In this document: piece after piece, positions 876-2,063 of the stretch
Layout of the letters: each line of letters starts with the position of its first letter
Numbering within the stretch: position 1 is the first letter of the stretch
Origin: Candidatus Nitrosopelagicus sp.
GTDB taxonomy: Archaea; Thermoproteota; Nitrososphaeria; Nitrososphaerales; Nitrosopumilaceae
DNA length: 12,517 nucleotides
Direction of reading: 5' to 3'
Assembly (NCBI GenBank): GCA_018691945.1
Contig: JABHJJ010000099.1
Coordinates: 1-12,517, forward strand
Program-made: the position numbers and the translations under genes
The notes under the pieces: generated by a model
What the model was told of the DNA's origin: nothing
The model's database searches: none
Seen by the model: the letters and a program-made list of their open reading frames with translations, nothing else

Positions 876-1289
876 ATGAGTAAACCATCTGATTTGGGTT
901 CATTAAAAATTGGCTCTTACATTCTTTTACCAGTAGGTGATCAACCAACAGGAGAACCTTGTAGAATATCTGAATACGATACAAGTAAACCTGGAAAACA
1001 CGGTGCAGCAAAAGCACGAATCGTTGGAGTAGGTGTCTTTGATGGTGCAAAACGTCCACATGTAGGACCTGTAAGTATGCAAATTCATGTACCATTAATC
1101 GATAAGAGAGTCGGTCAAATCATTTCAATTACTGGTTCAGAAATTCAAGTTATGGATGGAGAAACATTTGAAACTGTTGACATACAAATGGTTGACGAAG
1201 AAATTGACGGAAAACTAGAACAAGGGCAAGATATTGAATATTGGAATGTTATGGGAAGAACTAAAATCATGCGAATTAAAACATCCTAA
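876..1289 (+). CDS. eif5A: Translation initiation/elongation factor aIF5A
   Basis: This is the archaeal homologue of eIF5A, which binds the ribosomal E site and relieves stalling during peptide bond formation and termination. The N-terminal SH3-like domain carries the modification loop SKPGKHGAAKAR (37-48). K41 within PGKHG is the lysine expected to be converted to deoxyhypusine or hypusine. The C-terminal half (about 72-137) is the OB-fold domain. Length (137 aa) is normal for archaea. The ATG at 876 gives the standard N-terminus; no Shine-Dalgarno sequence precedes it. A possible TATA element, GTAAATAC, lies at 847-854, about 25 bp upstream. A box C/D guide RNA begins within a few bases of the stop codon and is probably made from the same transcript. 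Confidence 0.97.
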   Translation: MSKPSDLGSLKIGSYILLPVGDQPTGEPCRISEYDTSKPGKHGAAKARIVGVGVFDGAKRPHVGPVSMQIHVPLIDKRVGQIISITGSEIQVMDGETFETVDIQMVDEEIDGKLEQGQDIEYWNVMGRTKIMRIKTS

Positions 1290-1292
1290 ATT

Positions 1293-1357
1293 GGATGCTA
1301 ATGATGATTGGAAAAGCCATCTGATTTTTGATGAAGATTATGAGTTTTGAGGCATCC
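1293..1357 (+). ncRNA. Box C/D guide sRNA (2'-O-methylation guide)
   Basis: The gap between aIF5A and the dph6-like gene holds a nearly ideal archaeal box C/D sRNA. Seen directly, in order: 5' stem strand GGATGC (1293-1298), C box ATGATGA (1301-1307), a 13-nt guide (1308-1320), D' box CTGA (1321-1324), a 4-nt spacer, C' box TGATGA (1329-1334), a 12-nt guide (1335-1346), D box variant TTGA (1347-1350), and 3' stem strand GCATCC (1352-1357), fully complementary to the 5' strand. T-rich DNA follows at once (1360-1370). Such RNAs assemble with L7Ae, Nop5 and fibrillarin and methylate the target base paired to the fifth guide nucleotide before D or D'. The second guide matches a CAU anticodon loop with C34 at that position. 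The D box has U for the usual C, which would give a tolerable G-U pair in the kink-turn. It probably arises from read-through of aIF5A, since I see no clear promoter of its own. Confidence 0.85.
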
Positions 1358-1359
1358 TG

Positions 1360-1370
1360 TTTTTTATTTT
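1360..1370 (+). terminator. T-rich run after the guide RNA
   Basis: TTTTTTATTTT begins three bases after the closing stem of the guide RNA. In archaea a T run is sufficient to slow or end transcription, so it may define the sRNA 3' end. It also lies only 3 bp before the ATG of the next gene, so it could equally be an AT-rich leader, and termination would have to be partial if the downstream gene is co-transcribed. Confidence 0.4.
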
Positions 1371-1373
1371 AAA

Positions 1374-2063
1374 ATGAAACTCGCAGCATTATTTTCTGGT
1401 GGAAAAGATAGCACGTATGCAATCTATCTTGCAAAAAAGTTAGGACATTCAGTTGATGTGTTATTAACATTATACCCTCATTCTAGTGAAAGTCACCTGC
1501 TTCATTATCCAAATATAGAATTCACTCAATTACAAGCTGAATCCATGAAAACCCCACAATTAATAGAAGAAATTCCCTCTGATGATTCTGAAAATGAATC
1601 TAAAAAATTAAATAATCTAATTTCTCTTGCAAAAGAAAAATACTCTATTGATGGAATTGTCCATGGTGGAATTCTTAGTGAATATCAAAAAAATAATTTT
1701 TCTTTAATTTGTGAAAAAAATCATTTAGAAATAATTTCTCCTTTATGGAATAAAGAACCTGAATCTTATATGAAAGAATTATTAAATGAAAACTTTGAAT
1801 ATATTATCTCTACTGTAAGTTCTGATGGTTTGAATGACTCATGGCTAGGGCAAATAATTGATAAGAACGGATTAGATAAACTTCAAAAATTACAAAAAAA
1901 ATTTAGGTTCAATCTAAATTTTGAAGGCGGTGAGGCTGAAACATTTGTAACTAATTGCCCTTTATTTGAAAAACGTCTGTTAATTCAAGATTCAATCACT
2001 GAATGGGATGGTTACAGGGGAAGATTTGAAATATTGGAGGTTAAATTAAAAGATAATGCTTGA
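1374..2063 (+). CDS. dph6: Diphthine-ammonia ligase, Dph6 family
   Basis: This ATP-grasping amidase is expected to catalyse the last step of diphthamide synthesis: ATP-dependent amidation of diphthine on a histidine of elongation factor aEF2. The N-terminus carries the adenine-hydrolase-like PP-loop SGGKDS (8-13). The family pattern continues with VHGGILSEYQKN (96-107) and LWNKEP (124-129), and ends with the C-terminal signature EGGEAETF (184-191). At 229 aa it has the length of a single-domain archaeal Dph6. I chose ATG 1374, which gives the standard start MKLAALFSGG. An in-frame TTG at 1347 would add nine residues but falls exactly on the D box of the guide RNA and is unlikely. The 3' end overlaps srp54 by 8 bp, indicating translational coupling. 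Confidence 0.9.
   Translation: MKLAALFSGGKDSTYAIYLAKKLGHSVDVLLTLYPHSSESHLLHYPNIEFTQLQAESMKTPQLIEEIPSDDSENESKKLNNLISLAKEKYSIDGIVHGGILSEYQKNNFSLICEKNHLEIISPLWNKEPESYMKELLNENFEYIISTVSSDGLNDSWLGQIIDKNGLDKLQKLQKKFRFNLNFEGGEAETFVTNCPLFEKRLLIQDSITEWDGYRGRFEILEVKLKDNA

Follow-up and report, generated by a model that had tools for sequence, protein, structure and literature searches.

The window, a stretch of 12,517 nucleotides from Candidatus Nitrosopelagicus sp. (contig JABHJJ010000099.1), carries a short segment between the genes for aIF5A and a dph6-like diphthamide synthase that reads as an archaeal box C/D guide sRNA gene (Table 1). The C, D', C' and D boxes and the enclosing stem, claimed at canonical spacing in an initial annotation, were all located by direct reading. 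The stem is formed by the six-base halves GGATGC (1293-1298) and GCATCC (1352-1357), and T1299 and G1351 add a seventh (U-G) pair, after which the helix reaches the three-base bulge expected of a k-turn. The internal C' and D' boxes with a short spacer, which are a mark of archaeal box C/D sRNAs, are also present (CTGA, 4 nt, TGATGA).

Table 1. Positions of the guide RNA gene, its elements and its neighbours in the window.
Feature	Position	Strand	Basis or remark
aIF5A gene, upstream neighbour	876..1289	+	Pfam IF5A-like_N and eIF-5a
Gene of the box C/D guide sRNA, 65 nt including both stem strands	1293..1357	+	Direct reading, Rfam, conservation, covariation
Terminal stem, 5' strand, GGATGCT, 7 bp	1293..1299	+	Pairs with 1351-1357
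C box ATGATGA	1301..1307	+	Read from sequence
D' guide (guide 1), 13 nt, core GGAAAAGCC at 1310-1318	1308..1320	+	Predicted target 23S rRNA
D' box CTGA	1321..1324	+	Invariant in 17 genus sequences
Spacer, 4 nt, D' to C'	1325..1328	+	Read from sequence
C' box TGATGA	1329..1334	+	Invariant in 17 genus sequences
D guide (guide 2), 12 nt, AGATTATGAGTT	1335..1346	+	Predicted target elongator tRNA-Met(CAU)
D box variant TTGA (UUGA in RNA), non-consensus	1347..1350	+	Read from sequence
Terminal stem, 3' strand, GGCATCC	1351..1357	+	Read from sequence, covariation
T run 3' of the stem	1360..1365	+	Read from sequence; not conserved in relatives
dph6-like diphthamide synthase gene, downstream neighbour	1374..2063	+	Pfam Diphthami_syn_2

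Searched on both strands, the window holds a single strict pattern of C, D', C' and D boxes, at 1301; none of 200 dinucleotide shuffles of the window has one, and a looser pattern was found at a rate of 0.005 per shuffle. The combination had been described at the outset as very unlikely by chance, and the shuffles agree. TGATGA and CTGA are common in A/T-rich sequence, which is what a chance motif or a functionless relic would draw on, but the failure of all 200 shuffles to produce the strict motif, together with the order-wide conservation and stem covariation described below, leaves that explanation a negligible probability, and a chance motif was discarded on the grounds of shuffles and conservation. 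By search against Rfam 15 (E up to 5), four archaeal C/D families were found over 1293-1357, all below gathering: sR2 (25.6 bits against a gathering level of 42), sR41 (24.5 against 54), sR3 (20.8 against 41) and sR14 (14.6 against 38). Two other C/D snoRNA families, snoR77Y and snoR122, matched the same stretch, likewise below gathering, and SNORD49 (RF00277) was absent from the matches to the window RNA up to this E value.

An aIF5A match was found in 23 of the 31 genomes of the window's genus, and the RNA follows directly 3' of aIF5A in all 22 with sequence beyond that gene, the contig of G029 ending at aIF5A. A search model (R1), built from 17 same-genus copies, matched 24 of the 31 genus genomes, 22 of them strongly and over the full length. 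Over the whole order, R1 matched 164 of 250 genomes in 42 of 60 genera, and 132 of the 159 genomes with a completeness of at least 90%. Pattern scanning of named genomes gave at least 119 loci, and the carriers among the 80 matches listed include Nitrosopelagicus, Nitrosopumilus, Nitrosarchaeum, Nitrosotenuis, Cenarchaeum, Nitrososphaera and Nitrosopolaris. One match, in Ruegeria (L414), was taken as chance and removed, leaving 118 loci among the matches listed. Guide conservation in these loci arises by construction because the scan pattern selects both guides, and only the counts for stem, flanks and context are independent of it. When the 118 listed loci were aligned on the anchor without gaps, mean majority identity was 0.79 for the 5' stem plus C box, 0.55 for the 5' flank, which in many of the listed loci runs into the coding end of aIF5A, and 0.43 for the 3' flank. 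The initial annotation had proposed an alignment of relatives in which boxes and stem are kept while flanks drift; boxes and stem are indeed conserved, and the contrary outcome named there, their loss in relatives with the same gene order, did not occur. The T run noted 3' of the stem is present in the window, but it is not part of what is conserved, as the identity of the 3' flank indicates. By these sequence comparisons, the guide RNA is conserved widely among ammonia-oxidising archaea and related groups.

For the analysis of the stem, 99 of the 118 listed pattern loci and the window were reduced to 88 distinct sequences, an alignment that was fitted to the stem and so leans towards it. Among these sequences, 98.5% of the cells of the terminal stem are paired, as against 33-47% when the stem is slid, and double changes occur at seven of seven stem pairs, with 62 double-change cells compared with a shuffled mean of 13.3. 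None of 500 shuffles reached the covariation score of the stem. In the alignment restricted to the genus, the covariation did not exceed that of shuffled data, 160 of 500 shuffles scoring as high. Of the 88 distinct relatives, 87 keep the two sheared G-A positions of the k-turn (GA of the C box and GA of the D box); at the U-U position, 74 have U-U and four have G-C. The first base of the D box varies. It forms the outer k-turn pair with base 6 of the C box, and only 30 of 88 relatives have a standard pair there; the D box is accordingly regarded as degenerate. With this qualification of the outer pair, k-turn-capable C and D boxes and a terminal stem, as expected of archaeal box C/D sRNAs, are present.

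In the window, the stop codon of aIF5A (TAA, 1287-1289) is followed by three bases and then by the RNA stem, and dph6 starts 16 nt past the RNA. The initial annotation had taken the three-base spacing to suggest that the RNA is processed from an mRNA 3' end. The adjacency to aIF5A holds for the window and, as direct 3' position, for the genus, but dph6 is the more constant neighbour in other relatives: by tblastn with the window's own proteins, a dph6 match starts 50-537 nt past guide 1 in 110 of the 119 loci listed, and aIF5A ends no more than 250 nt upstream in 77 of these 119. Diverged copies may be missed in these counts, and in five loci the sequence breaks off early because a contig or stretch ends there. 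Outside the genus, aIF5A was found tens to 228 nt upstream of the RNA, or further, or not at all. An origin of the RNA from the 3' end of aIF5A mRNA is thus at best local. Since dph6 starts so soon after the RNA, the arrangement suggests that the RNA may be co-transcribed with its neighbours and then excised. A promoter-like motif was reported for only about 20% of the archaeal C/D genes examined, according to a review, most of the RNAs being processed from longer transcripts (PMC7994747).

The same neighbourhood might point to regulation in cis, with L7Ae binding a k-turn element of the aIF5A-dph6 transcript and thereby controlling dph6 or aIF5A; the closeness of dph6 in 110 of 119 loci fits such an element, and translational regulation by L7Ae has been suggested in archaea (PMC5539422). 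In five loci of family f8 (L140, L141, L142, L147 and L153), however, neither dph6 nor aIF5A was found by tblastn within 1.5 kb, and these loci retain the two guide cores or close variants of them. In addition, a leader element would have no need of C' and D' boxes and guides, and the guide co-changes in trans with 23S rRNA (see below). A cis-regulatory dph6 leader was therefore rejected on the retention of guides at loci where neither neighbour was found, and an L7Ae-bound cis-acting element in this transcript is considered very improbable. On the minus strand of the window, an intron-bearing tRNA gene was also observed at 20-139 (47.8 bits to RF00005), which was missed by ARAGORN and is by reading a tRNA-Tyr(GUA) gene with an intron after position 37; a similar tRNA gene is located upstream of aIF5A in the closed genome of the genus, G001 (L077).

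Targets, for which the initial annotation made no proposal, were sought in G001 by comparing both guides with its rRNA operon stretch and with a set of 41 tRNA genes. The best match of the D' guide was 9 bp with GGCUUUUCC of 23S rRNA, in which the +5 nucleotide falls at position 2618, aligned to E. coli C2510. Taken alone this match is weak, 23 of 400 shuffled D' guides also reaching 9 bp in one genome. No SSU or LSU match was found in the window's own assembly, and for this reason the 23S target was followed in relatives only, where it reads GGCUYUUCC across genomes. Among 42 genomes read, the site is GGCUUUUCC in those of family f1 and GGCUCUUCC in the others, and the core of the D' guide matches the variant, being GGAAAAGCC in f1 and GGAAGAGCC in the others. 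Families f1 and f8 probably correspond to Nitrosopumilaceae and Nitrososphaeraceae, respectively. Four of the 42 genomes (G013, G014, G016 and G024) were left out because no guide was in hand for them; among the remaining 38, guide and 23S agree at the variable core column in 37, with guide A and 23S U in 26 of 26 f1 genomes and guide G and 23S C in 11 of the 12 others. The exception is G049 (guide A against 23S C), a genome with 5% contamination. When guides and 23S sequences were paired across the two groups, agreement at this column was found in 26 of 624 pairings. The +5 nucleotide forms a G-C pair in all 38 genomes, and the full 9 bp are formed in 31. The copy in G075, which carries a different D' guide, stands outside the 38 because its 23S was not found. 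The covariation between guide and 23S may represent one evolutionary change. The predicted 23S target of the D' guide is strongly supported by this covariation across genomes, and the designation as a box C/D guide RNA gains from the same co-change in addition to the genus-wide retention and the stem covariation in the wider group. Altogether, the sequence evidence strongly supports a box C/D guide RNA at 1293-1357, with the boundaries as first assigned.

In elongator tRNA-Met(CAU) of G001, the D guide AGATTATGAGT has its counterpart in ACUCAUAAUCU, with which it forms 11 contiguous Watson-Crick base pairs, the +5 nucleotide being the wobble C34. The same target tRNA-Met gene is present in the window's own assembly. 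Only two of 400 shuffled D guides reach 11 bp. Guide-target complementarity with a paired +5 nucleotide, a further property of archaeal box C/D sRNAs, is hence present for both guides, for the D' guide with 23S in relatives and for the D guide with tRNA-Met. Conservation of the D guide was examined in 90 loci chosen from the R1 matches in the order so as to spread over genera, and the motif [AG]TTATGAG is carried by 72 of them (68 by script and four by eye: L116, L123, L135 and L158). L116, L123 and L135 carry GATTATGAG, and L158 carries GATTATGAG beside another guide 1. The remaining 18 consist of seven loci of a different type (L121, L122, L149, L155, L157, L164 and L166) and 11 orthologue-like loci without the motif (L120, L133, L134, L139, L146, L148, L150, L152, L159, L162 and L163).

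By two pattern searches, a tRNA-like match with the target string was detected in 29 of 46 genomes; a looser tRNA pattern was dropped as too noisy. The searches found no tRNA-Met containing this string in the other 17 of the 46, of which eight belong to family f8; within f8, the string was seen in G113 only. The gene could escape detection in such genomes if it contains an intron or if its T arm has changed. In L075 and L353, the elongator tRNA-Met gene carries an intron of about 42 nt that apparently breaks the anticodon stem before A31. Introns of archaeal tRNAs are usually located after position 37, and a place before A31 is non-canonical. Because the intron appears to lie before A31, the region of pairing with the D guide would be whole in the tRNA-Met precursor. 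In the 29 genomes with both guide and tRNA-Met seen, hand-picked from the pattern-search matches, the 9-nt core of the D guide is intact in 21, which thus have the complementarity and register predicted for a Cm34 guide of the kind of sR49 and the Haloferax guide; it is altered in eight (G056, G042, G050, G046, G239, G002, G027 and G028). The rRNA guide is accordingly the more constant half of the RNA, many lineages but not all having retained the tRNA guide. The predicted tRNA-Met target is supported by the length and register of the pairing and by its partial conservation.

Several variants of the D guide were observed. In L017, L020 and L022 (G026, G027 and G028), the D guide is GATTACGAG, with C opposite A35 of tRNA-Met, and tRNA-Met is unchanged in G027 and G028; in L019 (G002), two nucleotides of the D guide are deleted. 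G027, G028 and G002 belong to the window's genus. The variant GAATCAGAG of G042 was considered as a retargeted C34 guide and rejected, no convincing target being found in 30 of 31 tRNA hits or in the 23S locus and its flanks; an assignment to Gln(CUG) failed by eye. The D guide GAATCAGAG is carried by the orthologous loci L133, L134 and L139 of family f12, which by reading have swapped k-turn pairs (GAUC on the C side, GAGA on the D side). A second C/D-like RNA was detected in G158 (L166:1501-1558, minus strand) with the D guide GATCTTGAG. This sequence, present in G046 and in the G158 paralogue, fits CTCAAGATC of the tRNA-Leu(CAA) gene, which was read in G001, and suggests that the L166 RNA may be a C34 guide for another tRNA. 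A related C/D-like RNA was found in four genomes of genus g4 (L149:1501-1567, L155:1501-1569, L157:1501-1567 and L164:1501-1569), with AGAAAAGCTA in its D' guide and TTTGCCGAATT in its D guide, and a dph6 or aIF5A match was absent from the stretch.

Based on the anatomy, the conservation, the stem covariation, the complementarity in the N+5 register and the co-change of D' guide and 23S, the window RNA is very probably a dual-target archaeal box C/D sRNA, with the equivalent of 23S C2510 and C34 of tRNA-Met as predicted sites. Genes for L7Ae, Nop5 and fibrillarin are expected in archaeal genomes. The RNA would be expressed within an aIF5A-sRNA-dph6 transcript and excised from it; L7Ae would bind at two places, the C/D k-turn at the terminal stem and the C'/D' motif inside the RNA, and would be joined there by Nop5 and fibrillarin. 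Pairing of the D' guide with GGCUUUUCC of 23S would then direct 2'-O-methylation to the E. coli C2510 equivalent, beside the peptidyl transferase centre, and the D guide, paired with elongator tRNA-Met(CAU) from A31 to U41, would direct it to the wobble C34.

A guide with rRNA as its single target would differ from this in that the D' guide works throughout, the D guide being a drifting or orphan sequence whose match to tRNA-Met is functional in some lineages or in none. The pairing of the D' +5 nucleotide in 38 of 38 genomes beside a D guide altered in eight of 29, and the 17 of 46 genomes in which the tRNA-Met target string was not found, are what such a guide would leave behind; moreover, the Pyrobaculum tRNA-guiding sRNAs described in PMC7994747 have no target for their other guide, so a pair of rRNA and tRNA targets appears to be uncommon. 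This explanation is nevertheless unlikely, if worth keeping in mind, as copies from no fewer than three families (f1, f8 and f13) carry GATTATGAG, as 11 bp in the N+5 register are equalled by so few shuffled guides, and as C34 of tRNA-Met is known to be C/D-guided both in archaea (Haloferax) and in human (PMC6601510, PMC2584109). The dual-target RNA may best be described as a guide with a nearly fixed rRNA half and a tRNA half that drifts between lineages.

The RNA belongs to a well-known kind and calls for no new mechanism; what looks unusual is the pairing of rRNA and tRNA-Met targets, and the interest lies in this pair and its overlap with eukaryotic sites. The family is ready for use as a search model in ammonia-oxidising archaea, with two specific predicted methylation sites, and since both of these are methylated in human, it offers a handle on the age of the modification sites and their guides. 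In the open-licence literature, no paper on C/D guides in ammonia-oxidising archaea was found among the best 10 of 24 and the best 12 of 991 partial matches, judged by title. The genome paper of Nitrosopumilus maritimus may mention predicted C/D guides.

Among known guide RNAs, the closest by target in archaea are the tRNA-Met Cm34 guide of Haloferax volcanii and sR49 of Pyrococcus (Joardar et al. 2011; Grosjean et al. 2008), which are also C/D RNAs with C34 as directed or predicted site (PMC6601510, PMC2584109). These belong to a different phylum, however. In the present case, the other guide of the RNA has a predicted target in 23S that is conserved, the intron of tRNA-Met lies apparently before A31, and the comparison with sR49 is one of targets. 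Among eight relatives searched in Rfam, the best non-tRNA match was that of the f8 copy L130 to sR41 (RF01126; 31.8 bits, E 0.00054, below the gathering level of 54); the D guide of sR41 ends in CUAUGAG, in register with UUAUGAG here, but its D' guide differs. In human, C34 of tRNA-Met(CAT), the same target nucleotide, is served by the dedicated RNAs SNORD97 and SCARNA97 (Vitali & Kiss 2019; PMC6601510), which are compared here by target only.

The likeness of the D' half extends to SNORD49A/B (RF00277), the guides of human 28S Cm4456 (PMC9941101). Human Cm4456, Arabidopsis Cm2880 and an algal Cm2711 stand in one table row of PMC11542601, where neither archaea nor bacteria are represented. Counted to the equivalent of A-loop U2552, the distance is the same 42 in human, in E. 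coli and in Arabidopsis (4498-4456 = 2552-2510), and because both sites are 42 from that nucleotide, the 23S C2510 equivalent was taken as the human Cm4456 site, an identity by numbering arithmetic. L130, alone among the eight relatives searched, matched SNORD49 at 22.1 bits, with its D' guide GGAAGAGCCGUC in register with GGAAGUGCCGUC of the consensus; this is far below the gathering level of 37, one core base and the other half of the RNA differ, and SNORD49 is eukaryotic. It is conceivable, though we consider it improbable, that one archaeal guide RNA joins two sites served by separate snoRNAs in human (SNORD49A/B and SNORD97/SCARNA97) and that its D' half is ancestrally related to SNORD49. 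If so, the archaeal RNA would be a relic of a guide shared by archaea and eukaryotes, in which modification of the peptidyl transferase centre was coupled with that of elongator tRNA-Met.
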